Source of the DNA: Sedimentibacter sp. MB35-C1
GTDB taxonomy: Bacteria > Bacillota > Clostridia > Tissierellales > Sedimentibacteraceae
Length of the DNA stretch: 64,000 nt
Assembly (NCBI RefSeq): GCF_030913635.1
Contig: NZ_CP133188.1
Location: forward strand, 3,224,001 to 3,288,000
Direction: 5' to 3'
Shown: in pieces, positions 11,139 to 42,436 of the stretch
Layout of the letters: each line of letters begins with the position of its first letter
How positions within the stretch are numbered: position 1 is the first letter of the stretch
The notes under the pieces: model-generated
Database searches by the model: none
What the model was told of the DNA's origin: nothing
The model's input: the letters and a program-made list of their open reading frames with translations, nothing else
Position numbers and translations under genes: made by a program

Positions 11139-11588
11139 TTATAAATTAAGCAGTTTTTTTAATTTAATTAGGATTTTCTGCTTTCGGTAATTGACAAGCT
11201 GCTGAGATATACCGATTTCAGTAGCCATCATCGATTCGCTCTTTTCTTGAAAGAACAGTCCATCGATTATCTCCTGCTCCTTATCAGTAAGCTGCTTTAT
11301 GCAGTCATGAAGACGCTGAACCATAAGCTTGTCCACCACAATATCCTCCACACGGGGCGAGATTAAATCAGGGATTGCATCCTCTCCATTAGTTTCACTT
11401 GTATCCAGGGCACTATAAAAGAACACACCATGTTTTGCATCCTTTTCTTGTAGATGAAGTTCACGGCGTCTCATACGGTAATAAGTCAAATAGACTTCCT
11501 CTGTTACAGGCACTAGCTCATCTTGTACTCTTATCTGGTACTTCTTTTTTACTATGTGTTGTTTTGAAAGTTTTCTATGTTCCTTCAT
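11139..11588 (-). CDS. Sigma-70-like factor of the Tn916-Orf7 type
   Basis: The 149-residue product has a region-4-type HTH at its C-terminus (about residues 95-145: LTDKEQEIIDGLFF, then MATEIGISQQLVNYRKQKIL). The N-terminal part contains VPVTEEVYLTYYRMRRRE, a segment typical of the sigma-like proteins found in Tn916 and related ICEs. A canonical region 2 is not evident. Such proteins are thought to regulate conjugation gene expression. It is preceded by AAAGGAG at a normal distance from the ATG, immediately downstream of a palindromic leader structure that could control its translation, and it is followed by a strong terminator. Confidence 0.82.
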   Translation of the reverse strand: MKEHRKLSKQHIVKKKYQIRVQDELVPVTEEVYLTYYRMRRRELHLQEKDAKHGVFFYSALDTSETNGEDAIPDLISPRVEDIVVDKLMVQRLHDCIKQLTDKEQEIIDGLFFQEKSESMMATEIGISQQLVNYRKQKILIKLKKLLNL

Positions 11589-11604
11589 TTAAATCGACTC
11601 CTTT

Positions 11605-11723
11605 GGATTTCAAATTTTTGAAATCCGCCAGAGCCGCTGAATCCGCAAAATGAAACAAGACGGCAGGAGAACCCCCTTTGTCAGAGGATTCCGCACTGCC
11701 GTCTTGCGTTCTGGCGGATTTCA
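11605..11723 (-). promoter_or_regulatory. Structured leader with mutually exclusive hairpins upstream of the sigma-factor gene
   Basis: Transcribed on the minus strand, an arm at 11723-11710 pairs perfectly over 14 bp with an arm at 11632-11619, enclosing an inner 11-bp stem (11706-11696 with 11666-11656). The 11632-11619 arm can alternatively pair with a third segment at 11614-11605 in a 10-bp hairpin with a 2-base loop, next to the AAAGGAG of the sigma-factor gene. Two competing folds around a ribosome binding site suggest a regulatory RNA switch or attenuation device, though a simple palindromic repeat is not excluded. Confidence 0.5.
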
Positions 11724-11740: not shown

Positions 11741-11899
11741 TTACACTGCTGGTTTTACATGTTCATGAGTAATTTCTAATGTTCCGTCAGCATTTGCCCT
11801 AATTCGAGTAATGCAATCTTTAATTTGTATCACGAACATTCGCTCATCTTCGCTTACATCTCCAACACGCTTTTTGCTAAGGTTCCTAATCTCATTCAT
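11741..11899 (-). CDS. Small protein of unknown function (52 residues)
   Basis: The ATG at 11899 (MNEIRNLSKK) has GAAGGGAGGG upstream; the longer open frame has no site. The product has a charged N-terminus and a beta-hairpin-like end (DGTLEITHEH). Small proteins of this size sit beside sigma-like and recombinase genes in Clostridia elements, but I do not recognise a family. It lies upstream of the structured leader and the sigma factor, on the same strand. Confidence 0.55.
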   Translation of the reverse strand: MNEIRNLSKKRVGDVSEDERMFVIQIKDCITRIRANADGTLEITHEHVKPAV

Positions 11900-12117: not shown

Positions 12118-12146
12118 TTGATATTAGCAATGTCATATGATAAAAT
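12118..12146 (+). promoter_or_regulatory. Sigma-A-type promoter of the defence island
   Basis: TTGATA (12118-12123), a 17-base spacer and TAAAAT (12141-12146) lie about 50 bp upstream of the small regulator gene. An inverted repeat AATATCA/TGATATT with a 19-base spacer ends inside the -35 region, so the small HTH protein could repress its own operon here. Confidence 0.65.
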
Positions 12147-12193
12147 ATTCCAGACAGATTGTTTTGGAGCAACATTCATTTGGAGGCGATACT

Positions 12194-12406
12194 ATGGCGT
12201 TTAGCTACAATAAGCTATGGAAGTTATTAATAGATAGAAAGATGATAAAAAAAGATTTGATGGCTGAAACCGGCATAACCAGCACTACAATGGCGAAGTT
12301 AGGCAAGGATCTTCCGGTCAGCATGGATATTTTGGCGCGTATATGTAAGGCACTCAAATGCAATATTGGAGATATTGTCGACTATGTCGACGAGGACAAT
12401 AAATAG
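12194..12406 (+). CDS. Small Cro/CI-type HTH regulator
   Basis: The 70-residue product starting at ATG 12194 (GGAGGCGATACT upstream) is a lone HTH of the HTH_26/YozG type. Its pattern is LWKLLIDRKMIKKDLM, then GITSTTMAKLGKDLPVSMDILARICKALKCNIGDI. Proteins of this size head many restriction and defence operons, where they act as control proteins that tune expression after DNA entry. It is the first gene of the plus-strand island, 31 bp before the ABC-3C effector-like gene, and lies just downstream of a clear promoter. An open frame extends further 5' but lacks a good ribosome binding site. Confidence 0.85.
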   Translation: MAFSYNKLWKLLIDRKMIKKDLMAETGITSTTMAKLGKDLPVSMDILARICKALKCNIGDIVDYVDEDNK

Positions 12407-12437
12407 ACAACGTTTCACTTGAAAGGGAGGGGTCGGC

Positions 12438-13871
12438 ATGAGGTTATGTTTTGGTTCATACCTGGCTGTGCTTGTTTCGTGTAAGGCAGTTAATGTTGAT
12501 AATAAGCAGCTGTGTGAGGCACTGCTTCATTCTGTTGCCCCAAATTATGAATTCACCTTTGCCGGACAGGAAAACCCCGACAGGGTTCGGGAGGATGTCA
12601 CCTCCAAACTATTGCGTTGCGAGCAAAACCTGCCTAAAGATGTTACTGACCCAGCTCGTACCGCTGATCCTCAAGAAGTAGCTTTATATTTTAAAGACCA
12701 TGTCCTCGGACTTTTAAATGAAAATTTATCAAAGCAAATAATTCTCGCTTTCAAAGATATTATCGCCAATGATAAGCCTGAAATGATTAAAAATAAAATG
12801 CATGGCATTGAGGATGATACAAAAATTGAATTAGTCAATGGGATTATCAAAAGGGAATTGGCAGTCCAAACTGAATTCTTATTTCATTCGTTCTTAGCAG
12901 GTATTTTTCTATATACCGCTACAAAAACAACAAACAGATATGGCAAGAAAACAATAGAGTCAATTGATTACGACTATATTGTTTCATTTAATTCCCGCAT
13001 TGATGGGATTAATTTAATTGCTGATAAAGCAGCGAGCTTTTCCCTACCTAATATTAAAAATGGTAAGGCCGATACAGAATTTGCTGAGGATGTAGCAGGA
13101 TATGTTGTAGATAAAATTAAGTTGCTAAAACCTGCAACTGTACAGGAGGATTCCCTACTGGTTACTTTGCTATCAGAAGCAAACGGTAACTGCTTAAAAT
13201 GTGGCAAAAAACTTGGCATTCCAAAACGTGGGAAAATACCTGTTGGAAATTATGAAATTGTATATTTAAAACAGCCTTCTAATGAAAGAGACCAATATGA
13301 GAATGCTGTTGCATTATGTTCGGATGATTGTGCCCCTATCGTCTCAGAAATGTCAGCGGATGAAATAACAGATTTATTGGAGAGTAAAAAAAGATGTGCT
13401 GCAACTCAGGCCTTTCTCGACAAGATATCCGGGATTAAATTTCAAAATCAAATTGAGTCTGTTTTACGAGAAGTACATAAAATAAAAAACACCAAGGGTT
13501 TAGAAGGCACTGATATGAAAGACTTAGTAGAAATTGAACGCAAAATCCATGAGCCATTCCTTAAAGATAAGATTAACGCAAGTATGGCTCGTCTTTATAA
13601 AACAGTAAATGGAATATGCGGCCGTCTTGAGCAGGAAATTGGATTTGATACTAATATGTTTGGTGGATTAATGAAATCTGCCTCATTGATGCTTGATGGC
13701 GGGGTTAAAAGTAATGGGGATATTGCAGATCCCCAGGAATACATAATGAATTTATTAATAGACAATCTGTTTTTGCAGGTTGGACAAAAGCATAAAGATG
13801 CTTGTGAGATAATAATAGGATACTTAGTAAAGAGGTGTGATTTATTCAATGAGAATGCCAAGCAAAGTTAA
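12438..13871 (+). CDS. ABC-three-component (ABC-3C) effector-like protein with a zinc finger
   Basis: The 477-residue product is mostly helical, with a zinc-binding insert in the middle. C252 and C255 (CLKC) pair with C294 and C298 (LCSDDC), and the segment ENAVALCSDDC resembles the second half of an HNH treble clef. The catalytic His of HNH nucleases is not visible where expected. Its place, first in a triad with a small winged-helix-like protein and a DUF2326 SMC-like ATPase, matches the C-terminal component (effector/sensor) of ABC-3C systems known from comparative genomics of conflict systems. It begins at an ATG with GGGAGGGG upstream and overlaps the next gene by 23 bp. The family call rests mainly on context. 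Confidence 0.65.
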   Translation: MRLCFGSYLAVLVSCKAVNVDNKQLCEALLHSVAPNYEFTFAGQENPDRVREDVTSKLLRCEQNLPKDVTDPARTADPQEVALYFKDHVLGLLNENLSKQIILAFKDIIANDKPEMIKNKMHGIEDDTKIELVNGIIKRELAVQTEFLFHSFLAGIFLYTATKTTNRYGKKTIESIDYDYIVSFNSRIDGINLIADKAASFSLPNIKNGKADTEFAEDVAGYVVDKIKLLKPATVQEDSLLVTLLSEANGNCLKCGKKLGIPKRGKIPVGNYEIVYLKQPSNERDQYENAVALCSDDCAPIVSEMSADEITDLLESKKRCAATQAFLDKISGIKFQNQIESVLREVHKIKNTKGLEGTDMKDLVEIERKIHEPFLKDKINASMARLYKTVNGICGRLEQEIGFDTNMFGGLMKSASLMLDGGVKSNGDIADPQEYIMNLLIDNLFLQVGQKHKDACEIIIGYLVKRCDLFNENAKQS

Positions 13872-14091
13872 TTCTTACTCAGATAGCGTAATATCCTTGT
13901 TCGCACCTATCCTTGAGAAACTGGAGGAACGGGATATGACTCCCCATGAGTTACTTGAAGCAACACGGACAAAAGTGTCGGAAATAAGTGTTTTTCTTGA
14001 TGCTCTTGATTGTTTATATAAACTTGGACAGATTGAAATTCCCGAAGGTATGGAGGTTCTGCGCTATGTTAAAACAAATAATATGCGATAA
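13849..14091 (+). CDS. ABC-3C middle component (small winged-helix-like protein)
   Basis: The 80-residue product (ATG at 13849; a GTG at 13837 and an ATG at 13855 are alternatives) contains a compact helical region with VSEISVFLDALDCLYKLGQIEI. This is the recognition helix plus wing pattern of the small middle components of ABC-3C systems (ABC-3C MC6/MC7 type). Such proteins bridge the SMC-like ATPase and the effector. It overlaps the upstream gene by 23 bp and the downstream ATPase by 26 bp, so the three proteins are translated as one unit. The assignment depends on the neighbours. Confidence 0.7.
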   Translation: MRMPSKVNSYSDSVISLFAPILEKLEERDMTPHELLEATRTKVSEISVFLDALDCLYKLGQIEIPEGMEVLRYVKTNNMR

Positions 14092-15751
14092 ATTTAAAAC
14101 TCAGCCGGAAGCGTTCCGCACTGGGCTTAATGTTGTCCTTGGCAGCTCTGATGGCAGTAATGCTATCGGAAAAACTACCTTCCTACTTATACTAGACTTT
14201 GTTTTTGGTGGGGATGGTTATACCAAGGCTGCTAAGGATGTTATAAATCATATTGACCATCACACAATTGACTTTATCTTTGAATTTGACGGTATACCCT
14301 ACTTCTTTTCCAGAAGTACAAGCCGTCCTTCTGTTGTGAATCGGTGTGATAGTAAGTTCCGGGTTATTGAAGAAATGCCTTTGCAAAAATATCGGGGCTT
14401 TCTTTTTGATGAATATAAGATACATCTTCAAGGTATTAGCTTTAGCGAGATTGTCGATCGCTTTTTCCGCATTTATGGACACGGCAACCACAATGAACAT
14501 AAGCCTTTACAAGGTGAACGTGAAACTATGGCTACGGCTGTAGAGTATCTACTGAAATTATTGGACAAATTTCAGGATATACAGAAGCTTAAAATTGCCG
14601 AAGAAAGCTATGGTATTAAACCAAGCAAACAAATTGAGCGGTCAGTTTCAGACATCACAGCTAAAATTGGCGAGAATAAGGAAAAAATTACAGCCTTAGA
14701 AAAGCGCAGAGATAAACTATGCCAACAAAATGAAGAAGCTAATTTACAGGCTCTTGGGATTGATTCCAAGCAAGCTGAAAAGCTCGCTAATATAAAAAAA
14801 GAGCTGGGCAGGCTTATCAGAAGAAAAAGTCTCCTTACATCGCAGCTTAACGCTGTACAAAATAATATGCCTGAAAATGATGGTGTTCTGAGGAAAGACT
14901 TTTCGGCCCTTTTGCGCTTTTTCCCGGAAGCCAATATTGATGCCTTTAACGATGTGGAAGCCTTCCACGCTAAAATTAATAGCTTCCTCCGTGCAGATAT
15001 TGAGGAAGAGGTATCGCAGCTGGTACCGCAAATTGAATACATAGATGCCGACATCACCTCTTATGAAAAACAGATTGAGGACACTGGAGTAGCAAAAACA
15101 CTTTCCCAGTCTATTCTCACACAATATGCACGTGTATCCCGTGAGATTGAGAGGCTCGAAGATGAAAATGAAGCTATGCAAAATGAAATGGAACAATCGA
15201 AGAAACGCAAGGAAATTGAGGATATACTTGCCAACCTACGTAGAAAACAGGAGGAAGCGCTTGAAAGTGCAGAATCTGAGGTAAACGCTGAAATGAAAAG
15301 AATTAATGATATCATTACCGGCGGTGATAGGGCTACTCCTGTATTGACATTAAAACCAGATAAATCCTTTGAGTTTGAAACTCCTAACGACAAGAGCGAA
15401 GGAACGGCATATAAAGGGCTTGTTGTCTATGATTTAAGCATGCTTTCTTTGACCCCCCTTCCTGCATTAATTCATGATTCAAGCATTGTTAAGCGCATAG
15501 AAGATGCCGACTTTGAACAAATACTAAGCCTTTATCAAGAATGCGGGGATATGGGCAAACAGGTATTTATTGCATTTGATAAGGCAGATACATATACAGA
15601 TGATACCTACAGGATGCTTGATGAGGCAACTGTCCTCCGCCTTTCTATAGGAAATGAACTGTTCGGCAAATCTTGGAGCCGCAAAACTGCAGAAACTAAA
15701 CATAAACCTATATCCACTTTTGGATCAAATGATGAGCAAGAAACAGAATAG
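14066..15751 (+). CDS. SMC/RecN-like ABC ATPase (DUF2326 type) of an ABC-3C system
   Basis: The start at ATG 14066 (MLKQIICDKF; TGGAGG upstream) is used because the longer frame runs through the upstream gene. The 561-residue product has a Walker A at residues 30-37 (GSNAIGKT) and a long coiled coil (about 160-430, rich in Glu, Lys and Ile). A C-terminal ATPase half carries PALIHDS, the Walker-B-like strand of DUF2326 proteins, where a Ser replaces the usual Glu-type residue. Such ATPases are DNA-bound sensors or clamps in bacterial conflict systems. It is followed after 32 bp by a methyltransferase gene, so this triad is tied to a restriction-type module. Confidence 0.8.
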   Translation: MLKQIICDKFKTQPEAFRTGLNVVLGSSDGSNAIGKTTFLLILDFVFGGDGYTKAAKDVINHIDHHTIDFIFEFDGIPYFFSRSTSRPSVVNRCDSKFRVIEEMPLQKYRGFLFDEYKIHLQGISFSEIVDRFFRIYGHGNHNEHKPLQGERETMATAVEYLLKLLDKFQDIQKLKIAEESYGIKPSKQIERSVSDITAKIGENKEKITALEKRRDKLCQQNEEANLQALGIDSKQAEKLANIKKELGRLIRRKSLLTSQLNAVQNNMPENDGVLRKDFSALLRFFPEANIDAFNDVEAFHAKINSFLRADIEEEVSQLVPQIEYIDADITSYEKQIEDTGVAKTLSQSILTQYARVSREIERLEDENEAMQNEMEQSKKRKEIEDILANLRRKQEEALESAESEVNAEMKRINDIITGGDRATPVLTLKPDKSFEFETPNDKSEGTAYKGLVVYDLSMLSLTPLPALIHDSSIVKRIEDADFEQILSLYQECGDMGKQVFIAFDKADTYTDDTYRMLDEATVLRLSIGNELFGKSWSRKTAETKHKPISTFGSNDEQETE

Positions 15752-15783
15752 CACACTGACAGCAATTAAGGAGATGAGATTAT

Positions 15784-18090
15784 ATGGCGGTTATTAAAAA
15801 CTTACTACAGCAAATCACCGATCCGGTGCTCCGTGAGCGGCTTGCACAGGAAGTAAATCGGTTAAGTAAGAATAAAAAATTCGGCTTAGTTTTCGAGGAG
15901 CATGTTCCTGAATGCACTCCACTTTATAGCGTACCCATTAAACGAGGTTCATTTGTTGCCCGGAAAACAGGCAAAATGAATAATATATACATAGTAAAGG
16001 AAATAGATGGCGAAACTGCTACCTGCATGGATAAAATCACCCTTGAGATTGAAGCCATCCCACTTAGCGAAATCGTATCTGTGGCACAGTTTGGGGAACC
16101 TATTTTCCCCTCCCTTGAGCCTATCGATAAAGTACTTAATGCGGCAGATGACAACCTTTGGCATACGATTATTGAAGCTGACAACTACCACGCCCTTCAA
16201 CTTTTAGAATACCTTTATGAGGGAAAAGTGGATTGTATATATATTGACCCGCCCTATAACACTGGTGCAAGGGATTGGAAATATAATAATGACTATGTTG
16301 ATTCTGCAGATGCATGGAGACATAGCAAATGGCTATCAATGATGAAAAAACGGTTATTGATTGCAAAGCGTTTACTGTCAAAGGATGGTGTGCTAATCAC
16401 AACCATAGATGACAATGAATATGCCCATTTATGGGTTCTTCTTAATGATGTTTTCCCCGAATTAACGCACAACTGTGTTACCATCCAACATAACCCCGGC
16501 GGTACACAGGGTAAAAAGTTTTCAGTAACAAATGAATATGCTATTTATTCGTACTCAGCAGAAAGTGTAATTTATCGTAAACCGCACACTGGCGGTGATG
16601 TCTATAATCTACGTCGCTGGGGCAGCACATCGGGGCGTTATGAAGGAGCCACTTGCTTTTATCCAATTTTCATCGATGACAAATCGAATGTTATTGGGTT
16701 CGGAGACTTATTGGATGATGATTTGCACCCATCTAATCAGGTTGAACTTAATGATGACGGAACTTATTCCGTTTGGCCTATCGATAAAAATGGCACGGAG
16801 AAAAAATGGAGATATAGTAGAAGTACTGTAGAATCGGTTAAGGATCGTATGTTTATTGAGAAACGTGGCGAAAGGATTGAGGTTATATTACGAAGAGAAA
16901 GCGAGCCTCCAAAGACGGTATGGGTTGATGGACTTTTCAACGCTGAAGCCCATGGCACGGAAATATTGAAGACTATACTTGGTAGTGGCTTCACATTTCC
17001 ATTTCCGAAATCACTTTATGCCGTACAAGAGTCTTTGTTATTTGCTGTGCAAGGAAAAAAAGATGCATTGATTGTCGACTTCTTCGCAGGCAGCGGTACT
17101 ACACTCCATGCAGTTAATTTGCTTAATGCGGAGGATGACGGCAAGCGCCGCTGTATCCTTGTCACCAACAATGAGGTATCAGAGGCTGAAGTACGGGAAT
17201 TGAAAGCTGCTGGTCATCAGCCGGGTGACCCTGAATGGGAAAGCCGTGGCATATGCCGCTCGGTAACTTGGCCTCGTACGGAATATAGCATCCTTGGCAA
17301 ACGAGCTGATGGCACAATTTTAACAGGGGAATACTTTACTAATCTGACAACCGATAAAGAGACCAACCGCTCCTTTTATCAACTGGGATTCGTAGAAAAC
17401 CCTACGGGACTTGTGCTTGCTGCAAAAAAACAAATTGTTGCTCTTATGGGCAAGAATAAGCTGCCACAATCCCTCGTTAAAGCCGACAGCCGTTTTGTAG
17501 TATCGGAGAAATACACCGCTTCAATTCTTTTTGATCCAGAAGCAGCTGACGAATGGCTCGAAGCCCTTGAAGACCAAGAGCATATTACTGATTTCTATAT
17601 TGTTGCAAAAGAGAACCGTATTTTTAATGAAATAAAAACAAAAGTGGTTGAGTTACTCGGTACAATCACAATAGCTGAACCATTCAAGCGGCCAATGAGT
17701 GAAGGTTTTGCCGCCAATGTAGAATACTTTAAGCTTGGTTTCTTGGATAAGAACAGTGTTTCCCTTGGCCAGCAATTTCATGAAATACTGCCCCTTCTGT
17801 GGTTAAAGGCAGGAGCTGTCGGCGAGCGTCCAGAATTAGATGGCATAGAATTACCGGATATGCTGATTCTGCCGCAAAATTCCTTTGCAGTTTTGCTTGA
17901 TGAAGATTGTTATGGCAAGTTCTCTGAAGCCTTGCTTGATGTCGGTAAAATTGAAACAGTGTATTTTGTCACGAATTCTGAGGAGGCATTTAGGGAGATG
18001 TCTGATGGTATCGAGGCCACTTATACCTACCAGTTATATCGTGACTATATTGATAATTTTGTAATTGGGAGTAGGAGGAATAGTCTATGA
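15784..18090 (+). CDS. Type III-like DNA methyltransferase (Mod)
   Basis: The 768-residue product is a beta-class amino-methyltransferase. The catalytic motif IV DPPYNTG (residues 155-161) comes before the AdoMet-binding motif I DFFAGSGTT (432-440), with a 270-residue recognition region between them. About 320 residues follow motif I, longer than in simple methylases. It probably methylates adenine N6 (or cytosine N4) at a target chosen by the middle region. AAGGAG lies before the ATG. Its stop overlaps the ATG of the helicase gene by 4 bp, which makes the two a Mod/Res-type pair. Target sequence cannot be read from the sequence. Confidence 0.9.
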   Translation: MAVIKNLLQQITDPVLRERLAQEVNRLSKNKKFGLVFEEHVPECTPLYSVPIKRGSFVARKTGKMNNIYIVKEIDGETATCMDKITLEIEAIPLSEIVSVAQFGEPIFPSLEPIDKVLNAADDNLWHTIIEADNYHALQLLEYLYEGKVDCIYIDPPYNTGARDWKYNNDYVDSADAWRHSKWLSMMKKRLLIAKRLLSKDGVLITTIDDNEYAHLWVLLNDVFPELTHNCVTIQHNPGGTQGKKFSVTNEYAIYSYSAESVIYRKPHTGGDVYNLRRWGSTSGRYEGATCFYPIFIDDKSNVIGFGDLLDDDLHPSNQVELNDDGTYSVWPIDKNGTEKKWRYSRSTVESVKDRMFIEKRGERIEVILRRESEPPKTVWVDGLFNAEAHGTEILKTILGSGFTFPFPKSLYAVQESLLFAVQGKKDALIVDFFAGSGTTLHAVNLLNAEDDGKRRCILVTNNEVSEAEVRELKAAGHQPGDPEWESRGICRSVTWPRTEYSILGKRADGTILTGEYFTNLTTDKETNRSFYQLGFVENPTGLVLAAKKQIVALMGKNKLPQSLVKADSRFVVSEKYTASILFDPEAADEWLEALEDQEHITDFYIVAKENRIFNEIKTKVVELLGTITIAEPFKRPMSEGFAANVEYFKLGFLDKNSVSLGQQFHEILPLLWLKAGAVGERPELDGIELPDMLILPQNSFAVLLDEDCYGKFSEALLDVGKIETVYFVTNSEEAFREMSDGIEATYTYQLYRDYIDNFVIGSRRNSL

Positions 18091-20603
18091 GAGCAACCTT
18101 ATTTCCTTTTCAAGAAGTAGCACTTGCTGACTTACATGAGAAGATACAAAAAGCACATACCCTTTGGAGCGAAAAAGACCCGCAGGTTATTTCTTTTACC
18201 GCTCCCACGGGCGCAGGAAAGACAATTATTATGACCGCTCTGTTTGAGGATATTATTTTCGGTCATGCTTACGGTATAGCTGAGCCTGACTCTATTTTTG
18301 TCTGGCTTTCAGATATGCCTGAGCTAAATGAGCAAACACGCTTAAAAATCGAAAGCAAATCAGATAAATTCCGCGCAAGAGACATCCACATAATTGATTC
18401 CAACTATGACTCCGAATATTTTGCACCGGGCGGAATCTATTTTTTAAATACACAAAAACTTGGTACAGACAAGCTTCTCACCCAGAAGTCGGACCTGCGC
18501 CAATATACAATTTGGGAAACACTTGCAAATACAGCTAAGCGCCAACCAAAATCATTTTATATTGTTATAGACGAGGCACACCGAGGTACAGCTACACCGC
18601 AAGCGGAAAACAGAGCGCAATCCATTATGCAAAAATTTATTAAAGGCAGCAAAGAAGATGGAATGGCTATCATGCCACTTGTTATAGGTGTAACTGCAAC
18701 ACCACAGCGTTTTCAACGACTTGTAGCCGATACTACTTCTACTATCCAAAAAGTTGCTGTTCCCCCGGAGGATGTCCGAGAATCCGGCTTATTGAAAGAT
18801 AGAATTATAATACATTTCCCTGAAATTGCAATAAATGCAGATATGACAATGTTTAAAGAAGCTGTTGCTAATTGGAGAGATAAATGCGAACGTTGGGCTG
18901 CTTACTCTGACCATGAGGAAATTAAAAATCCTGTTCGCCCTATTCTTGTAGTTCAGGTGGAAGATGGTAATGAACGGTTGATCACCCACACAGATTTGGA
19001 GAATTGTATCACTGTTATTGAAAATTCTCTTGGACGCAAGCTCCGTGCCGGTGAGGCAATTCATACATTTGATAAATATGAAACCATCAAAGTAGGTGAT
19101 GTAGATATATACAAAGTGGATGCATCCCGAATTGAACATGACGAAAAGGCGATGGTCGTGTTCTTTAAGATGAACCTTTCCACCGGATGGGACTGCCCTC
19201 GTGCCGAGACAATGATGTCATTTAGGCACGCCAGTGATTATACTCATATTGCTCAGCTGCTGGGGCGGATGATCCGTACCCCTCTTGCCCGCCGTGTTGA
19301 ATCCGATGCTGAATTAAATAATGTCAGCCTTTACCTGCCATTCTTCGATGAGGAAACTGTCAAGATGGTGGAGCAAGCCCTGCGTGATGGTGAAGCATCT
19401 ATCCCTGCTGAAACAGGCTCACACAGGGAATTAATCACATTAAAAAGAAATCCTGCTTTTGCAGATGTGTTTAGCGATATGAATTTAATAACATATCGCA
19501 TAGATTCGGCAAGAAAGCAACCAGCTCTACGCAGGCTGATTGCCCTTGCTCGTGCCCTTACCCAAGATATGATTGCACCAGGGGCTCGCAAGACTATGTT
19601 AAAAAAATTGCTTGATGAATTTGAAAAAGAAATCACTGCTTTAAGAGAATCGGGCAAATTCGAGACCATATCCAAAGCAACTACAGTCTTTGGCCTCTAT
19701 TCCCTTACCATCGATTATGGCAGTGATGTTGCAAACAAAATTATGGAATCAAATGAAGTTATCTCACTTTCGGATTTTGATATGAATAATCTATTTGAGC
19801 GGGCGGGAAAAATCTTCGGCGAAGGCTTACACAAAGAGTATTGGATTCGTCATGCTACTCGTGAAGCCAAAGATGTAAAAACTGAAATGATTGTTCTGGC
19901 CAGTGACAGTGAAGCAATGGATAGGCTTGAAGCATTTGCCGGTAGGTTATTCAATGAGTTATATGATACCCATCAATCAGCCTTCCGCCACTTAAAGGAA
20001 GACCGCAAGGATACATATAGAAAACTTGCACAGTCCTCCACTATTCCAATCGCACTTGATTGGCAGCTGCCCCAGTCTATAGATTTTTCTATAGGAGAAG
20101 ATGCTATTGCCTTAGAAAATCATCTTTTTATCCCTTCCGAGGGCGGAGACTTCAAAGTTAGCTTGGGCGATTGGGAAAAGGGTGTTATTGAGGAAGAGAT
20201 GAAAGAATCAAAAGGTGCAGTAGCATGGCTTCGTAATCTTGATCGCAAAAAATGGTCCCTTGAAATTCCATACGAAGTAGGTGGTGTAACAACCCCCATG
20301 TTCCCAGACCTTATTGTTGTTCGTACTAATGCAAATGGATATGTTTTTGATATTCTGGAGCCCCATGATCCCAGCCGTAAGGATAACTATCCAAAGGCCG
20401 TTGGTCTTGCAAAGTTTGCCGAAAAACATGGTGAATATTTTGGCCGGATACAGCTTATTCGCAAAGCAAAAGGTGCGGACAAACGAGATCATTTCTACCG
20501 TTTAGACATGAGTAAGCTTAGCATTCGAAATAGAGTTCGTAGTGTAACATCCAATGCTGAACTTGATCGAATTTTTGATGAGGAAGCAATAACGGAAGAA
20601 TAA
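18087..20603 (+). CDS. Type III Res-like DEAD/DEAH helicase with a PD-(D/E)xK-like C-terminus
   Basis: The 838-residue product has Walker A APTGAGKT (39-46), DEAH box IDEAHRG (around 161-167), a motif III VTATPQR and a motif VI-like LLGRMIRTP, so it is an SF2 translocase. Near the end PD (740-741) is followed by DILEPH (755-760). This is a PD-(D/E)xK-like arrangement in which the usual Lys is His; related helicases carry DPH there, so this looks like a family trait. The gene overlaps the methyltransferase by 4 bp. It likely cuts or displaces DNA lacking the partner's methylation. Confidence 0.85.
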   Translation: MRATLFPFQEVALADLHEKIQKAHTLWSEKDPQVISFTAPTGAGKTIIMTALFEDIIFGHAYGIAEPDSIFVWLSDMPELNEQTRLKIESKSDKFRARDIHIIDSNYDSEYFAPGGIYFLNTQKLGTDKLLTQKSDLRQYTIWETLANTAKRQPKSFYIVIDEAHRGTATPQAENRAQSIMQKFIKGSKEDGMAIMPLVIGVTATPQRFQRLVADTTSTIQKVAVPPEDVRESGLLKDRIIIHFPEIAINADMTMFKEAVANWRDKCERWAAYSDHEEIKNPVRPILVVQVEDGNERLITHTDLENCITVIENSLGRKLRAGEAIHTFDKYETIKVGDVDIYKVDASRIEHDEKAMVVFFKMNLSTGWDCPRAETMMSFRHASDYTHIAQLLGRMIRTPLARRVESDAELNNVSLYLPFFDEETVKMVEQALRDGEASIPAETGSHRELITLKRNPAFADVFSDMNLITYRIDSARKQPALRRLIALARALTQDMIAPGARKTMLKKLLDEFEKEITALRESGKFETISKATTVFGLYSLTIDYGSDVANKIMESNEVISLSDFDMNNLFERAGKIFGEGLHKEYWIRHATREAKDVKTEMIVLASDSEAMDRLEAFAGRLFNELYDTHQSAFRHLKEDRKDTYRKLAQSSTIPIALDWQLPQSIDFSIGEDAIALENHLFIPSEGGDFKVSLGDWEKGVIEEEMKESKGAVAWLRNLDRKKWSLEIPYEVGGVTTPMFPDLIVVRTNANGYVFDILEPHDPSRKDNYPKAVGLAKFAEKHGEYFGRIQLIRKAKGADKRDHFYRLDMSKLSIRNRVRSVTSNAELDRIFDEEAITEE

Positions 20604-20635
20604 TATTTCAGATATTATTAACAGGAGGAGAAATA

Positions 20636-22405
20636 ATGGCATTTCAAACTGCACTTACAATAAAAGAAGCTATTGCCAGCATTCATAGTAAAAAGTATTT
20701 GTTACCTTCTATCCAAAGAGAATTTGTATGGGATGTAGACCAGATTACCCAATTATTTGATAGCCTTATGCTTGGCTATCCCATAGGCTCATTCCTGTTT
20801 TGGGAAGTCGGCAAACAAAATGGCAATGAATTTGTTTTTTATGAATTTCTCAGGAATTATCATGAAAGGGATTGCCGTCACAACACCAAAGCAAGTATTA
20901 CCGGTAGTGAATCTATCACAGCTATTTTAGATGGGCAACAGCGGCTAACATCTCTCTATGTTGGGCTGATGGGAACATACGCTTATAAGAAACCATATTT
21001 CCGTTATGATAATCCCAAGGCCTACCCAGTTAGAAAGTTGTATTTGAATTTACTTAGCAAGTCTGAAGATGATGACTGGTTTTATGATTTTTCATTTTTA
21101 ACTAATGATGAATGCTCCAATGATGAAGATCACTATTGGTTTGCTGTGGGCGATATACTTAAATTCAACGAATTAACCGATGTGGTTATTTACTTGCAGC
21201 AAAAGGTTGTTCCATATTTGCTAAAATCAGCACAGGATTCAGGTAAAGAATATGACACAGAAAAGGGTACCTTTGCAACGGATACATTGAGTAAATTATG
21301 GAAAGCCGTTCATAGTGACGGTACGATTAGCTATTATCTTGAAAAAAGCAACGAGCTTGATAAGGTACTCAATATTTTCATACGGGTAAATAGCGGAGGA
21401 ACACAGCTTAGTTATTCTGATTTACTGCTGTCTATTGCGTCAGCACAATGGGACCAGCTGGATGCCCGGGAAGAAATCCATCAGGCGGTTGATGACTTGA
21501 ATCGCATCGGACGAGGATTTAATGTCAATAAAGATTTTATCCTTAAAGCCTGCTTAGTACTCTGCGATTTTCCGGATATCGCTTTTAAGATTGATAATTT
21601 TAATCATACCAATATGATGAAAATTCAGCATGAGTGGGAAAACATCATAACAGCCCTCAGGGAGGCAGTCACTTTAGTTGCCCGCTTGGGCTTCAATAGA
21701 GATAATATAACATCCAATAATTTATTTATCCCTATAGCCTATTACATAAAACATATGGGATTACCCACAAATTTTGCTGCATCCCCTAAAAATGCGGAGA
21801 ATGTACGGAAAATTAAGAAATGGTTTGTCAGTGCCATGTTGAAGCGTGTCTTTAGCTCCCAGCCTGATGGTGTCCTTCGCCCTATTCGGGAAATTATTCA
21901 AAAAAATAACAAAGCTGACTTTCCTTTTGAGAAAATTGTTGACAGATTTAAGGGTACAAACAGAACCCATGAGTTTACGGATGCAGATATTGAAAACCTG
22001 CTGTTCCAAAAATTTGGACAAGGGGATACTTTGGTTGTAATGTCCATTCTCTACCCTTGGGCAGACATGAACAATTCGTTCCATGTTGATCATATATTCC
22101 CCAAAGCAGAATTTACGGAAAGGAAATTACGCCGAAGAGGAATTGTTGATATAACCGATTTTATTAGCAATTTTAACTATATTGGTAATCTTCAACTTCT
22201 CGAAGGACTTGATAACACTTCTAAAAAGGATAAGGATTATAAAGAGTGGTTTGAAACAAATTTACCCACAGCAGAAGCCAAACGAGAGTACTGTAAAAGG
22301 CATTTAATTCCTTCTGACATTGATTTTTCATTTACAAACTTCCCGGAATTTTTTGAAGCTCGAGAAGCTCTGATTATTGAAAAGCTAAAAAAAGAATTGC
22401 AATAA
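20636..22405 (+). CDS. DUF262-HNH (GmrSD/DUF1524-like) nuclease
   Basis: The 589-residue product has the DUF262 hallmark DGQQRLTSL (from residue 99), part of a ParB-like nucleotide-binding fold. An HNH-type end has HVDHIFPK (483-490) followed by NFNYIGNLQLLEGLDN. GmrSD-like proteins of this layout hydrolyse NTPs and cut modified DNA as single-protein Type IV restriction enzymes, and others take part in phage defence. GGAGGAG precedes the ATG, 32 bp after the helicase stop. It adds a second nuclease activity to the Mod/Res pair, with a specificity that is not readable here. Confidence 0.85.
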   Translation: MAFQTALTIKEAIASIHSKKYLLPSIQREFVWDVDQITQLFDSLMLGYPIGSFLFWEVGKQNGNEFVFYEFLRNYHERDCRHNTKASITGSESITAILDGQQRLTSLYVGLMGTYAYKKPYFRYDNPKAYPVRKLYLNLLSKSEDDDWFYDFSFLTNDECSNDEDHYWFAVGDILKFNELTDVVIYLQQKVVPYLLKSAQDSGKEYDTEKGTFATDTLSKLWKAVHSDGTISYYLEKSNELDKVLNIFIRVNSGGTQLSYSDLLLSIASAQWDQLDAREEIHQAVDDLNRIGRGFNVNKDFILKACLVLCDFPDIAFKIDNFNHTNMMKIQHEWENIITALREAVTLVARLGFNRDNITSNNLFIPIAYYIKHMGLPTNFAASPKNAENVRKIKKWFVSAMLKRVFSSQPDGVLRPIREIIQKNNKADFPFEKIVDRFKGTNRTHEFTDADIENLLFQKFGQGDTLVVMSILYPWADMNNSFHVDHIFPKAEFTERKLRRRGIVDITDFISNFNYIGNLQLLEGLDNTSKKDKDYKEWFETNLPTAEAKREYCKRHLIPSDIDFSFTNFPEFFEAREALIIEKLKKELQ

Positions 22406-22422
22406 CTGCGAGGTGAATACCA

Positions 22423-23445
22423 ATGCCTTTTACAATCGTCCGGCAGGACATCACAAAGATAAAAACCGATGCAATCGTTAATGCCGCAAATACGGAACTT
22501 AAAATGGGCGGCGGTGTTTGCGGAGCTATATTTAAAGCGGCTGGGAAAAACGAACTACAAGAAGCATGCAATGAGCTTTCACCTATAAAAACAGGTGAAG
22601 CTGTAATTACACCGGGCTTTGCCTTACCGGCAAGCTACATTATTCATGTTGCAGGACCGGTCTATGATCCTTCAAGCCCCAAGGTAAGCGAGAAACTTCT
22701 TCGCTCAGCTTATCTAAACTCTCTTAATCTTGCCAAAGACTATAAGTGCAAAAGCATCGCTTTTCCCCTTATTTCAAGCGGCATTTATGGATATCCGAAG
22801 AGTGAAGCGCTCAAGGTAGCGACTATTGCAATCAAGGATTTTCTTGGCAATCATGACATGGATATCTATCTGGCCGTATTCGATAAAGACTCATTTATGG
22901 TTAGCGAGAAGCTACTGGGAGAAGTTGCAAGCTATATTGATGACAACTATATTGAAAAGCATAAACTATCACGGCGAGAGCTGCTTGATATTGAGCGAAG
23001 AGCCTTATCTGATGTTGACCATATAGAATATGGCTCACCAATGCCGCAAATTTCAGAGGAGGTACTTAAGGCCCCAGCAGGCATTGATGACTTAATAGAT
23101 AATCTCGATGAGCCCTTTTCGACAACTCTCCTACGCTTAATTGATGCCAAGGACAAAACTGATGTGGAGGTTTATAAGCGTGCCAACCTTGATAGGAAGC
23201 TGTTTTCAAAAATAAGAACCGGTAAAGGCTACATGCCCAGCAAACGAACAGCCATTGCCCTGGCCGTTGCCTTAGAGCTTAACCTTGATGAAACAGACGA
23301 TCTCCTGGAACGGGCCGGTTATGCCTTATCTCGCAGTCAAAAATTTGATGTGATTATAGAATATTTTATCATCAACGGCAAATATGATATTTTTGAAATT
23401 AACGAGGTATTGTTCAAATATGACCAGCCCTTGTTAGGGGGATAA
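22423..23445 (+). CDS. Macro-domain protein fused to a Cro/CI-type HTH
   Basis: The 340-residue product has an N-terminal macro domain (residues 1-170). Its ADP-ribose-binding signature appears as AIVNAANTELKMGGGVCGAI near the start and LISSGIYGYP around residue 115. After a linker it has an XRE-type HTH around residues 225-320 (DVEVYKRANLDRKLFSKIRTGK). Macro domains bind or hydrolyse ADP-ribose on proteins or nucleic acids. The HTH suggests it binds DNA or other HTH proteins. GAGGTG lies before the ATG. The gene sits 17 bp after the DUF262 gene and 4 bp before the GIY-YIG-like gene, in the same operon. Confidence 0.85.
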   Translation: MPFTIVRQDITKIKTDAIVNAANTELKMGGGVCGAIFKAAGKNELQEACNELSPIKTGEAVITPGFALPASYIIHVAGPVYDPSSPKVSEKLLRSAYLNSLNLAKDYKCKSIAFPLISSGIYGYPKSEALKVATIAIKDFLGNHDMDIYLAVFDKDSFMVSEKLLGEVASYIDDNYIEKHKLSRRELLDIERRALSDVDHIEYGSPMPQISEEVLKAPAGIDDLIDNLDEPFSTTLLRLIDAKDKTDVEVYKRANLDRKLFSKIRTGKGYMPSKRTAIALAVALELNLDETDDLLERAGYALSRSQKFDVIIEYFIINGKYDIFEINEVLFKYDQPLLGG

Positions 23446-25305: not shown

Positions 25306-27135
25306 TTAAGATGTCCGTACATGGGTACGGCGTTTTGATGTATCTGTTTGTGGTTCGGTAACAGGGGTATGCAAAGTACCGGTACCACTCACTTCCTCCA
25401 ATAGCTCACCGCTTTCAGTATAAACCGCGATAAATGCCGAATGACGACGCATTATATTTTCCCCTAGTATTTGTTTGTCTGCATAGGTAACCTTTCGGTG
25501 AGCGCGTTCTGCTACCGTATAAACACTATCAAAGGTAATACCCCAATCTAAAAATAAACGCAGCTTTGTTTTCATCGGATGAGTACCCGTTTTCATCACA
25601 ACAAAATTACCTTTGGGTATGGATTTCAATTCATCTGCTGTCATGAGTGGACGTTCCATCATCTGCAGAGACTGGCTTGGATCATTCTTGCCACGGCTAA
25701 TGCTCCCAGACATAACAGTGCGGCTGCCAAGTGCTTTGGACAGGACTTCTGCCGTTTGGCTATTAGGAGCGAAGCCACCGAAGATAGTATCCTGGCAGTT
25801 ATCTACGATAATTTCGGAGCCTTCTTTCCCATAGTTTTTTTCAAGCTGGCCAAAACTTTGAATGATTGGTACCATGGTCAGGCGACGGGAACGGCTTGCA
25901 GAAAAAATTAACTCCAACGAATCAATAGCAGGAAGTGTACCAAGCTCATCACAGTAAAATACAACTCTGTTTTTCAGCTTACCTTCATTTTCATCGGCCA
26001 CAGCTAAAATTTCACGGTATAACTGTTGAATCATCAGGCTGACCATAAAGTATTTTGTTAAATCTTCTTCCGGCAGCACAATAAATAATGCCGATTTTTC
26101 ATTTACAAACTTCTCTGCATCTACGGCTGTATCAAAACACAAAATCTGCTCCATCTCGGAATCTAGAAAAGAATTTAGTCTTGAGAGCACCGTGGAAAGA
26201 ACTGACATCATGGCCTGCTCAGCTGAATTGAGTGCCGCCCCTGCAAACCATCGTGCTTTATGATCACTGGGGAGCTTATCCATTAAGAGTTGGAATTGGC
26301 TTTTACCTTTTATTTTGCTTGGAGCAAGTAAGTCCTGTACCAGTTTGAATACGCTTATAATGTGACGACAATCGGTGACTGAGCCATCCCCATTTTTTGC
26401 TGGAGGAAGATATTCTGCAATTAACAAAATTACAGCAGTAAGAAGCCCTTCGGCAGCATCATAGAAAAACTGATTTTGCCCGTAATTTTCACTACCGGCA
26501 TTGATTATGGTTTTGGCAATAATCTTTGCATATTTTTCTGCCTTAGCTTTAGCTACAAGATTTTTTTCATCAGCTCGGTATGCATCCATATATTTATTAA
26601 CAAGGTGAAGCATATTGTTACCATCCGATCGGGTGGGATTACGCAAATCAATGACAGCCACATGATAGCCATAGTAGTCACGGGCAATGGCTCCGTAGTT
26701 TCGATAGAGATCTCCTTTGGTATCAGTGGTAAGAAAGCTCATACCGCTGGCACATGCATATTCAAGATTAGGATAAAGAAAAAAGGCAGTTTTACCCACA
26801 CCGGATGCACCAATCATTAGGCAATGGACATCATCGGTGTCCACCAGTGCTGTGAGATCATTTTTCTTACCAATGCTTCCAAGGATTAACCCCTGCTGAT
26901 TAACTTGGGGTAGTGCTATACCCCTTCGCCATTCCCTTGGCTTAAAAGGCATGTGTTTGTAGGTGCTTTTGATTTCATTGTTGGTAGCAAACCTTGCTGT
27001 ACCATGTTGACCATCACCTACTGTACGAGACTTGATTCCGTTGAGTGTATAATAGTGGGCTAAAAGCGAAAGACCGCCGATGACAGAAAACATCACGGCG
27101 GCCGCTGCTATGAGGATATAAACTTGTGATAGCAT
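25306..27135 (-). CDS. VirD4/TraG-type coupling protein
   Basis: The 609-residue product has one clear N-terminal membrane segment (residues 5-28). It then has Walker A GASGVGKT (109-116), the segment LTTDTKGDLYRNYG, Walker B VVFYCDELGTLP, and a TraG-like C-terminus. Coupling proteins link the relaxase-DNA complex to the secretion channel using ATP. Length is typical for the short Gram-positive type. AAAGGAG precedes the ATG. It follows the toprim gene by 17 bp in the same orientation, as in Tn1549-type elements. Confidence 0.93.
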   Translation of the reverse strand: MLSQVYILIAAAAVMFSVIGGLSLLAHYYTLNGIKSRTVGDGQHGTARFATNNEIKSTYKHMPFKPREWRRGIALPQVNQQGLILGSIGKKNDLTALVDTDDVHCLMIGASGVGKTAFFLYPNLEYACASGMSFLTTDTKGDLYRNYGAIARDYYGYHVAVIDLRNPTRSDGNNMLHLVNKYMDAYRADEKNLVAKAKAEKYAKIIAKTIINAGSENYGQNQFFYDAAEGLLTAVILLIAEYLPPAKNGDGSVTDCRHIISVFKLVQDLLAPSKIKGKSQFQLLMDKLPSDHKARWFAGAALNSAEQAMMSVLSTVLSRLNSFLDSEMEQILCFDTAVDAEKFVNEKSALFIVLPEEDLTKYFMVSLMIQQLYREILAVADENEGKLKNRVVFYCDELGTLPAIDSLELIFSASRSRRLTMVPIIQSFGQLEKNYGKEGSEIIVDNCQDTIFGGFAPNSQTAEVLSKALGSRTVMSGSISRGKNDPSQSLQMMERPLMTADELKSIPKGNFVVMKTGTHPMKTKLRLFLDWGITFDSVYTVAERAHRKVTYADKQILGENIMRRHSAFIAVYTESGELLEEVSGTGTLHTPVTEPQTDTSKRRTHVRTS

Positions 27136-28242: not shown

Positions 28243-30903
28243 TTATAATGTGTGCATGGACTGTTCATGATCATCTTGCTTGTGACCCTGCGCCTGCTTC
28301 TTAGCCCTTATCTTCTGCAGGAGTTTCCGATCAGCACGCTGGTTCGGCGGCATTCTTGCCGGTGCAGTATCACCGATAATACGGCTCATGTGATGCAATA
28401 ACCTTGTGGCTGCCAGCATCACAGACGGTTCTTTGAACTCATCTATATGGTCAAGAAAAAACTGAGCATAGATATTGCCCTGTGCTGCCGAGAGTATGAA
28501 CCACTTTACGGCTTCTTCTTTATCTTTCAGAACATTCTTTCCCATCAGATAAAGCTTTCCAAGGGTGTATTGGGCATATTGATTACCTTGATTTGCGGAA
28601 GCGGTCAAATATTGCAAAGCTATTTCCACATTCTTCGGGACATCCTCGCCTGTAAGATAAAGCTTTCCAAGGCGGTATTCGGCAAGTTCATTCCCCTTTA
28701 TAGCTGCACTTTTTAAATATGAAATTGCCTTTGCTACATCCTTTGTAACATCTTCACCTCTTAGATAAAGGCAACCGAGGGCATATTCTGCAAACTGATT
28801 TTTCTGTTTAGCGGAAAGGTTAAGCCAACGCAAGGCTTCAGGGATATCTTTTAAAATACCTTCACCGCCCAAGTACAGCTTGCCGAGCTGATAAGCGGCA
28901 AAGGAGTTTCCCACCAATGCCGCCTTTTCAAAATAGCTTCGTGCCTGCAATATATCTTTTTCTGTGCCGATACCGTTTAAAAGCATCCAGCCAAGACGAT
29001 ATTGAAGCTTATCATCATGGCTTTGTTTTTCCAAGGAAGTAAATCCATGAAATGCATTAGTGAAATATTTTTCTGCTTTCGTTTCATTTTTATCACAGCC
29101 AATGCCATCACGAAACATTTTGCCTACTTTAAAGCTGGCATAGGGAAAACCCTGTTTAGCTGAGCGTAGATACAATTCAAATGCGGTTTGGTAATCTTGC
29201 TCCACACCATTACCCATATAATAAAGACCAGCAAGAGAATACTCCGCATATTTATATTTTTCACTTGCCGATTGTGTAAGCCACTGAGCGGCCTTCATAT
29301 AATTCTGTTCTGTACCAAGCCCTGCTGCATACATCTTCCCAATACGATACTGGGCATATTTCCAAGGCTTTTCAGACTCGGCAGCATGGAATACTGTGAG
29401 TGCCTTTTCATACCTTTGATGCGATTTATCAGCATCTTCACTGCATCCAAGACCATCCGCATTCATTCTGCCAAGGTCATACATAGCAAGGGGATTATTT
29501 CGCTCTGCTTCCAATAGCAACAGGCTATAGGCTTTTTCAAAATCCTGACTGATTCCGGCATCCTCATTACCATAGAAAAATTGCTTTGCCTGCTTATAGT
29601 TCTCACTCCACCATGAAGGGGTGCGGCTTTTTCCATGGTGTCTGCCAGCTTCTTTTTGAGGTTCAAGTTCATCTTGAATGTCGTCTGCATTCTCTGGAGG
29701 AAAATAGCCGGGCAGCATACTACTATCGGCAGGGGGGGCGGGTATTATAGAATCTGCTGTTTCTGATTCATCAAAGATAAATTCTCCTTGTGAAATTTCC
29801 ATTGCTTCTTTTATAACCATGTTACGAATAGATTTAAAGTCACTGCATTTTGAAAGCGGCAATTGCTGAGATGGTGTTTCGGTATAGATACTCTCAATCT
29901 GCCCCTTTGCTTTTTGCCATAGAGTATAGGCTTTGGCCACTCTTTCATCCTTGGCAAGCTCATCTACAATTTCATCCACCACATTTTTAAGTTCTGCCTT
30001 TAGATATCCATATTGTTTTTTTCCTGTGGTATGTTTCAGACACTCCGCAAGATAGGTGATAAGCTCTTCAATTTTTTCGCTTCTAAGGGTATCGCTTTGC
30101 ATTTGTATCAGCAGTTTTCGAAGTGCAATGCGCGCTTCTTTAGTAAGATCATCCCGCTTTTGAGTTTTTTCTCCGTATAAAGGTATCAGCTCCTGCCGGA
30201 AGATTTCCGTTGCAAGAGCTGATTTCATTTTGCGAATCCCCGGCTTAGTAAGATATCCTTCATTTGGATTTGTACTGTAACAGATCATATGGACATGGGG
30301 ATGATGGCTCTCATTATGAAAGGCTGCATACCATTTCAAATTGTCCGGATGAATTTTAAGGCTTTCTGTAAGCTCCATGGCTTTGGAAGAAATTAATGCT
30401 TTCCAGCTTTGAGCATTATCAAATCCAAATTTTTCAGCATCCTCACGGCGAAGGGAAATGATCGGTGTCCACACATTACCGCTATGCTCTGCGATCTCTT
30501 TTGCAACTTGCGAAAGAATAAGCGGTTGTTCTCCTACTGTAAACAGACCATGGGTATCAAACTTTTCTACTCTGGGACGGTTTGCGATGTAGTCAAGATA
30601 TTTTTCTTTGTCACCGACTTGTTCAATGTGCTGTTCCAATGTGATAGAAATAAATTCAGAAGCATTTTCACGATTTGGCTCGGCAAGGTAGTCCTCATAT
30701 TCCAGTGACTCCTTGCTATCGGGAAATTCTCGAATGATTTGAGTAATAAGCGACTGCTGCTTTTTGGTGCTATTCCAAAGTGCCTTAGCATTAGAAACTT
30801 TTTCTACACCATCACGAGTGGCGATGTATTTGACCAGATGATTTAGATGGGATGTAGCTTTTCTGCCTTTAAGATAACCATTTTTAATAACCAGTCTTGC
30901 CAT
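28243..30903 (-). CDS. MobP-type relaxase fused to Sel1-like repeats
   Basis: The 886-residue product begins with the MobP3-type start MARLVIKNGYLKG and has the three-His metal motif HNESHHPHVHM near residues 196-206. This gives a relaxase that nicks oriT and carries the strand. The second half (about 440-840) is nine to ten Sel1-type repeats (patterns like YAQYRIGKMYAAGLGTEQ and AEYALGCLYLRGEDV), which build alpha-solenoid protein-binding surfaces. The end is basic. The ATG overlaps the stop of the accessory gene (TAATG). Most MobP relaxases end after about 450 residues, so the solenoid is a notable addition, possibly a docking arm for the coupling protein. Confidence 0.92.
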   Translation of the reverse strand: MARLVIKNGYLKGRKATSHLNHLVKYIATRDGVEKVSNAKALWNSTKKQQSLITQIIREFPDSKESLEYEDYLAEPNRENASEFISITLEQHIEQVGDKEKYLDYIANRPRVEKFDTHGLFTVGEQPLILSQVAKEIAEHSGNVWTPIISLRREDAEKFGFDNAQSWKALISSKAMELTESLKIHPDNLKWYAAFHNESHHPHVHMICYSTNPNEGYLTKPGIRKMKSALATEIFRQELIPLYGEKTQKRDDLTKEARIALRKLLIQMQSDTLRSEKIEELITYLAECLKHTTGKKQYGYLKAELKNVVDEIVDELAKDERVAKAYTLWQKAKGQIESIYTETPSQQLPLSKCSDFKSIRNMVIKEAMEISQGEFIFDESETADSIIPAPPADSSMLPGYFPPENADDIQDELEPQKEAGRHHGKSRTPSWWSENYKQAKQFFYGNEDAGISQDFEKAYSLLLLEAERNNPLAMYDLGRMNADGLGCSEDADKSHQRYEKALTVFHAAESEKPWKYAQYRIGKMYAAGLGTEQNYMKAAQWLTQSASEKYKYAEYSLAGLYYMGNGVEQDYQTAFELYLRSAKQGFPYASFKVGKMFRDGIGCDKNETKAEKYFTNAFHGFTSLEKQSHDDKLQYRLGWMLLNGIGTEKDILQARSYFEKAALVGNSFAAYQLGKLYLGGEGILKDIPEALRWLNLSAKQKNQFAEYALGCLYLRGEDVTKDVAKAISYLKSAAIKGNELAEYRLGKLYLTGEDVPKNVEIALQYLTASANQGNQYAQYTLGKLYLMGKNVLKDKEEAVKWFILSAAQGNIYAQFFLDHIDEFKEPSVMLAATRLLHHMSRIIGDTAPARMPPNQRADRKLLQKIRAKKQAQGHKQDDHEQSMHTL

Positions 30904-42366: not shown

Positions 42367-42436
42367 AAGTGAATCACCTCCCTGTAAAAAGAATAAGGAC
42401 ATACCGTTTATCACGATATGCCCCTGATTTTTGCAT

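Follow-up and report, generated by a model that had tools for sequence, protein, structure and literature searches.

A putative two-state RNA leader in front of a sigma-like gene in an ICE-like region of Sedimentibacter sp. MB35-C1

The commitment of phages and ICEs to transfer is an old question, and the answers to it have mostly been repressors and antirepressors. At the level of translation, cis-regulatory RNAs that sequester a ribosome-binding site are well known and include translational riboswitches, protein-bound leaders and thermosensors. In these RNAs, as predicted for the leader described here, mutually exclusive helices decide whether the Shine-Dalgarno (SD) sequence is paired; the present element differs from them in that no Rfam 15 family matches it at gathering score and in that two similar copies of a sequence contest one upstream arm. 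By gene arrangement, the operon studied here resembles xtrA-xpf of PBSX in Bacillus subtilis, in which a small gene is followed by a phage-type sigma factor; we know of no RNA element between xtrA and xpf. A further kind of control before sigma-type genes is provided by arrest peptides. R-A-P-P is the arrest-peptide motif of ApdA and ApdP (PMC10951233). In a second source (PMC12992588), RGPP is described as robust and RSPP as partially permissive, a random screen is cited in which arrest sequences contained RSPP, and Streptomyces lividans is reported to have two RAPP/RGPP peptides upstream of ECF sigma genes. Such leaders are like the window in placing control before a sigma-type gene, but the window leader lacks the motif. 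The c-di-GMP-I riboswitch (RF01051), which stands before genes of the same sigma family, is also absent from the window, where the two-state element is found instead.

The window is the whole stretch of 64,000 nucleotides that was analysed (contig NZ_CP133188.1, positions 3,224,001 to 3,288,000). Its surroundings look like those of an ICE, with a coupling protein (25309-27135), a MobL relaxase (28246-30903) and a TrbL-like protein (41467-42414). The relaxase, on the minus strand, is fused to Sel1 repeats, of which seven stretches were matched. A divergent cluster on the plus strand (12137-23445) carries an HTH gene, a DUF2326 gene and a DNA methylase, together with helicase-like and other genes recognized by eye, and looks like a restriction/defence island within the ICE. 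The leader and its neighbouring genes comprise the following features:

11741..11899 (-): small protein gene, 52 aa; an ORF with five predicted beta strands
11592..11722 (-): whole RNA element; match to covariance model R1 at 111.9 bits, the window sequence being one of the 12 that built the model
11710..11723 (-): 5' arm, TGAAATCCGCCAGA; its partner is copy 1 (OFF) or copy 2 (ON)
11697..11707 (-): 5' strand of hairpin P2, CAAGACGGCAG
11656..11666 (-): 3' strand of hairpin P2, CTGCCGTCTTG, followed by a U-rich stretch
11641..11646 (-): copy 1, GCGGAT; OFF partner of the 5' arm
11630..11636 (-): anti-SD strand, CGGCTCT
11619..11632 (-): copy 2, TCTGGCGGATTTCA; pairs with the 5' arm in ON and also serves as the 5' strand of the SD hairpin
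11605..11614 (-): 3' arm of the SD hairpin, TTTGAAATCC
11598..11604 (-): SD of the sigma-like gene, AAAGGAG; predicted to be paired in OFF and free in ON
11139..11588 (-): sigma-70 region-4-like gene, 149 aa; Pfam Sigma70_r4 and PHROGs

Based on our results, we consider that the leader is probably a cis-acting two-state translational switch of the sigma-like gene, and we give this reading a probability of about 0.75. The two helices, their compensatory evolution, their fixed place before the start codon and the order of the operon can be taken as established as far as sequence alone allows. From these we infer that the ON and OFF states would exist in cells, that they would control translation, and that the product of the gene would activate transfer or late genes.

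In the window, a sequence-only reading had proposed that one segment can pair either upstream over 14 bp or downstream over 10 bp, around an inner stem of 11 bp, and each of these pairings is borne out. The 5' arm (11723-11710) is perfectly complementary to copy 2 (11632-11619); the 3' part of copy 2 with two further A (GGATTTCAAA) pairs with the 3' arm of the SD hairpin (11614-11605); and the inner stem is P2, located where it had been placed. An equally long perfect inverted repeat occurred in 1 of 2000 first-order Markov sequences. That reading was silent on two points. The first is a third strand, copy 1 (11646-11641), which is a rival for the same 5' arm, and the second is that the minimum-energy fold pairs the SD itself (11604-11598) with CGGCTCT (11636-11630). 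In this fold the SD hairpin is formed by CGGCTCT with GGAGTCG and then by GGATTTCAA with TTGAAATCC, while the 5' arm lies on copy 1. The window leader (151 nt) folds at -68 kcal/mol, whereas 200 shuffles that preserve dinucleotides average -37.2 (sd 4.2), which gives z -7.3; three relatives give z of -7.5 to -9.2 and share the OFF fold of the window. The 14-bp pairing of the 5' arm with copy 2 is a competing fold in which the SD is free, computed to lie 7.2 kcal/mol higher. The SD is thus paired in one computed fold and free in the other.

The element is not confined to this genome. The nearest sister copy (L002), from a direct kin search, differs from the window leader by one base. A DNA search of 381 genomes of the class gave five that match, the window's own among them; true leaders were found in G104 and G281, and the leader of G020:C303, with 79% identity, precedes a different sigma-like gene. 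A match in G279 (L069) covers 21 bases within a gene and was rejected as due to chance. With a pattern made from the first relatives, the element was then located in 29 viral contigs, where it keeps its architecture and in every case immediately precedes a gene. One phage record (L070) carries the element; it is probably not a separate copy, because it is an IMG/VR genome with an R1 score equal to those of L071, L094 and L096. With the covariance model R1, the element was found in 12 of 371 genomes of the class (11 of 370 without the window's own) and in 14 of 388 genomes of the phylum (13 of 387 without it), the weakest match (L124, 32.8 bits) being probably not a member and therefore not counted. 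Across 68 sequence sources, R1 gave 34 sense matches of at least 62 bits; the best score among the remaining 34, which include the arrest-peptide leaders of other sigma relatives, was 17.2 bits, and antisense matches of members reach 29.7 bits. R1 can serve to annotate the element elsewhere. Some copies depart from the archetype. In L123 the 5' arm is altered, and in a variant form (L107, L109 and L111, which R1 misaligns) copy 2 (GCCTTCTTGC in L107) pairs with the SD itself (GCAAGGAGGC) over 10 bp with one G-U, while the same copy 2 pairs with the 5' arm over 10 bp. In our view the element is probably a general device of mobile elements rather than one specific to ICEs, because 29 copies lie in contigs of the viral collection.

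No Rfam 15 family reached its gathering score in the window or in L048, L066, L067, L068 and L070; in low-threshold scans the best hit inside the element scored 17.2 bits in the window, where the family's cut-off is 75, and 18.7 bits in L076, where it is 55. The exact pattern CGGATTTCAAAAATTTGAAATCC was absent from the viral contigs, a protein search of the viral contigs with the sigma-like protein returned no relatives, and a DNA search of plasmids with the leader returned none. The element was not named in the titles and abstract openings of the literature searched, a scope that excludes most subscription journals. An SD-masking two-state leader is a known kind of device, while this RNA family, its operon and its spread are absent from the scans and the literature searched. 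Two other origins for the complementarity were rejected: a MITE or other insertion in the leader, because the genome of the window has a single copy and the relatives share the architecture, and a palindromic DNA operator as the main reading, because the element is fixed relative to the SD and compensatory changes preserve the RNA pairs.

The two folds are general features of the family. For this comparison we used 21 members, namely the 43 rows without N minus 22 removed at 93% identity, copies of the window included; L072 and L079 are identical within the element, leaving 20 distinct element sequences. The OFF helix is part of the energy minimum in 20 of the 21, the exception being L098, whose minimum carries the ON helix with the SD inside a small local hairpin. 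Compared with the minimum, the best fold in which the SD is free is less stable by 2.1 to 11.1 kcal/mol; it uses the ON helix in 16 of the 21 and retains the OFF helix in five (L076, L077, L082, L087 and L095).

We next asked whether both helices have been maintained by compensatory changes. R1 was built on 12 well-aligned members (a first MAFFT alignment of 20 members misaligned copy 1 and was not counted), and the alignment was not fitted to the ON helix. In the main set of 29 distinct rows, some of them closely related, 88.3% of the cells of the OFF helix are paired and 6 of its 11 pairs have changes on both sides, while 91.6% of the cells of the ON helix are paired and 3 of its 12 pairs have such changes. 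An absence of covariation had been named as what would speak against the element, yet covariation was found in both helices, and a two-state control element is supported: the OFF helix scores 0.356 (shuffles 0.193; best slid version 0.081) and the ON helix 0.241 (shuffles 0.158; best slid version 0.094), with 0 of 500 shuffles as high in either case. The SD hairpin (92.4% paired, 6 of 13 pairs changed on both sides) also exceeds all 500 shuffles, and in P2 92.0% of the cells are paired, with 12 of 16 pairs changed on both sides. We repeated the comparison on 22 held-out rows that had no part in R1, several of them near relatives of rows in the model; left out were the 12 of the model, near-duplicates, L107/L109/L111, L118, L120, L123 and L124. 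There, the ON helix (91.2%, 0.271), the OFF helix (87.4%, 0.355) and the SD hairpin (92.1%, 0.200) each lie above all 500 shuffles.

Not every measure is equally discriminating. For both OFF and ON, the number of cells with double changes, the percentage paired and the score are each reached by none of 500 shuffles. In contrast, the number of pairs with double changes was reached by 60 of 500 shuffles for OFF and 433 for ON (19 and 197 in the held-out set), and the number of further pair types by 398 and 325 (60 and 63 in the held-out set), so that these two counts are not clearly above shuffles for either helix. Some positions pair poorly: the OFF pair 9-120 is mismatched in 16 of 27 rows, the SD-hairpin pair 148-191 in 19 of 26, and in the ON helix pairing fails at 11-142 in 9 and at 12-141 in 8 of 29 rows. 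The pair 10-143 is the most informative one. In OFF, column 143 falls into the internal loop of the SD hairpin, and it is paired, with column 10, only in ON; this pair is AU in 11 rows, CG in 10, GC in 4, GU in 1, mismatched in 1 and gapped in 2. On a rough tree of the small protein, 36 copies require at least 4 double changes at this pair, when GU is read either way and the mismatched copies L067 and L122 are dropped; if every letter pair, mismatches included, is taken as a state, the pair changes 9 times on the tree. It is therefore not one inherited event, and a real ON state is supported by the covariation of this column, which has no partner in OFF, with the 5' arm. Taken together, the score, the cells paired and the double-change cells, all above shuffles and slid versions, argue that both alternative helices are under selection.

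What lies behind the RNA is, in most cases, a sigma-like gene. The window protein matches Sigma70_r4 at E 5e-4 and 20 bits, which is below the Pfam cut-off of 24.1, and PHROGs sigma-factor families at 1.9e-9 and 4e-9. Behind 37 copies of the element we found 35 frames of at least 90 codons (L106 and L108 have none), which reduce to 23 distinct proteins at 70% identity, and 20 of these are sigma-like: 19 match a PHROGs family named as a sigma factor at E 0.001, and the twentieth, from L095, matches Sigma70_r4 at 4.5e-6. The proteins of L073 and L122 match phrog_13787, of unknown function, as does the protein of the window, and the protein of L083 matches no PHROGs family. The closest relative of the whole window operon is L116, with a homologous small protein, the same RNA and a sigma-like protein that is 57% identical.

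In the window, the 52-codon ORF ends at 11741, just upstream of the leader. An HMM of the small protein found a family member within 330 nt upstream of all 46 RNA copies checked; its 18 members are all among these 46, and the 28 copies outside the HMM match too, with a worst E of 8e-5 in a small search set. None of 460 control pieces, all taken 700 nt or more from the RNA, gave a match (30 of 460 did so in an earlier control, whose pieces were allowed to overlap the true gene). Pfam, NCBIfam and PHROGs contain no family that matches the small protein of the window. AlphaFold2 predicts with confidence a five-stranded sheet (mean pLDDT 92.5), for which Foldseek gave no match at E 0.001; the best structural Z, 5.7 with fatty-acid-binding proteins, is under the level that the tool calls telling, and a profile search gave one designed protein (E 0.0084). 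An automatic start rule recovered the small frame for 23 copies in one set of 32, and a frame for 11 copies in another set of 14; where it gave one the stop lies 10 to 37 nt from the element. Sensing by the terminating ribosome of the small gene was rejected, because a ribosome footprint would call for a more constant spacing. A hairpin like an intrinsic terminator lies further upstream, before the small gene, at 11979-11949 on the minus strand (shuffles hold a mean of 0.9 such sites), so that expression of the small gene, too, may be attenuated.

A possible course of events for the switch can be proposed. By computed energy OFF would be the default state, with the 5' arm on copy 1 enclosing hairpin P2, and with copy 2 and the CGGCTC strand folded onto the SD, so that the sigma-like activator would not be translated. 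In ON, the 5' arm would take copy 2, the anti-SD strand would leave the SD and the gene would be translated. The 5' arm has 14 continuous pairs with copy 2 in the window and about 7 with copy 1; because the helix with copy 2 is the longer, strand exchange would be feasible during transcription, before the SD is synthesized, and afterwards OFF would be the more stable. Some factor would then have to hold ON or to prevent OFF. Our first choice for this trigger, made tentatively and at clearly less than even odds, is the small beta protein, the cheapest candidate, whose gene directly precedes the element in all copies checked; next would come co-transcriptional strand exchange or read-through at P2.

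The last of these leads to the best of the rival explanations, which we nevertheless find unlikely: the leader would primarily be a transcription attenuator, in which P2 and its U-run terminate, the arms tune termination and read-through, and the SD hairpin only mops up leaky transcripts. P2 is indeed a strong covarying hairpin, followed in the 21 members by 4 to 7 U in 8 positions, and terminator-like hairpins (by eye) lie behind the c-di-GMP-I riboswitch that is present in 7 of 13 leaders of the sigma kin. In the window, however, the U-run is weak (5 U in the next 8) and a consensus terminator scan does not call P2. More generally, the OFF and ON strands lie downstream of P2 and would be absent from a transcript terminated there, and they are nonetheless under selection.

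That the element includes the aptamer of a small molecule, as in a ligand-sensing riboswitch, would agree with its two-state architecture and its strong sequence conservation. We find it improbable: the conserved positions lie, by eye, in or beside helices with no branched pocket, the genes downstream are mostly regulators, and there is no Rfam match.

Still less credence is given to a leader-peptide attenuator, in which a ribosome on a short frame across the arms would open the SD hairpin in the manner of erm or arrest peptides. Such a frame (MKSARTQDG...NEGT) is open in the window from the ATG at 11723 into the sigma-like gene, the single leader difference of L002 is, by eye, synonymous in it, and peptide-type leaders are present in the sigma relatives. 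But this ATG has no SD, in six of the 21 members every frame is interrupted within the element, the open frame varies between members, and the length of the element (126 to 148 nt) does not respect thirds, so that no short frame is conserved across the alternative helices in this set; the window leader also lacks R-[SAG]-P-P and Y-P-stop, and its 49-aa frame found nothing in plasmids.

A fold-back of the IS10 type, which protects against read-through from outside because upstream-started transcripts mask the SD and those from an internal promoter do not, would explain the masked SD of the full-length leader but is also highly unlikely, since a minus-strand scan of the leader for the sigma-70 consensus found nothing resembling a promoter, and the complementarity of the 5' arm to copy 2 would be left unexplained.

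The two-state switch is not the only way in which this sigma family appears to be controlled at its SD. Among 29 non-redundant leaders of the family, the window included, the SD is paired with upstream sequence at a probability above 0.9 in 16, as compared to 4 of 90 control genes drawn from these loci; the median probabilities are 0.98 and 0.42. In 25 of the 29 leaders, and in 1 of 110 controls, one frame contains R-[SAG]-P-P or [RG]-Y-P-stop no more than 110 nt from the start codon, the R-[SAG]-P-P motif having been defined on the same leaders in which it was counted. The four without it are the window (L017), L004, whose leader is probably degenerate, L011 (RSHP) and the distant L055. In L003-L056 the motif frames reach the 5' strand of the SD hairpin or extend into it; those of L039 and L108 have a start codon with an SD. 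Within the motif, Arg is encoded by CGN or AGR and Ser by TCN or AGY, a variation that points to selection on the peptide. These frames look like a candidate arrest-peptide switch on sigma genes of mobile elements, a second lead that merits its own study. L108 (minus strand) holds both systems in tandem: the two-state RNA, an arrest-type frame with CRSPP and a second SD hairpin. There, the SD of the RNA element serves the frame MRKNTADLYKKTYHCRSPPCPPSF..., which runs into the second SD hairpin.

The c-di-GMP-I riboswitch lies upstream in 7 of 13 sigma-kin loci (the upstream DNA of L003 and L018 is short) and in 1 of 20 further loci, at these distances:

about 270-600 nt before the sigma gene: RF01051 in L004, L005, L007, L011, L012, L014 and L039
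about 930 nt before the sigma gene: RF01051 in L013

Control of ICE activation by this second messenger is possible. Across elements whose activators belong to one class, the SD thus seems to be masked by unrelated means. We propose, tentatively and at slightly less than even odds, that the small beta protein, the RNA switch and the sigma-like gene form a portable module for the commitment of phages and ICEs in this phylum, in which the protein would bind the RNA and read the state of the element. This module would be one of at least two unrelated solutions, because sister sigma genes have SD hairpins behind arrest-type peptides, and some lie behind a c-di-GMP riboswitch. If this is true, mobile elements would as a rule silence their master activator at the ribosome-binding site and differ in the signal that is sensed. 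A conserved RNA on the translation start of a sigma-like gene in many such elements would offer an RNA handle on phage and ICE induction.

Two further observations concern the sister loci. In L004, L005, L007, L011, L012, L014 and L016, a short SD-bearing frame lies between the riboswitch region and the sigma gene, and such frames, for example MRFYTYTRCK-stop in L005 and MSFYTYKRWK-stop in L016, directly precede a terminator-like hairpin recognized by eye. A few hundred bases behind the sigma gene, the pemK RNA (RF02913) is found in L003, L005, L007, L011-L015, L018 and L020, and likewise in L023, L024, L032, L034-L040 and L042; in L007, MazF-like, excisionase-like and integrase genes (by eye) come after it, as does a tRNA.
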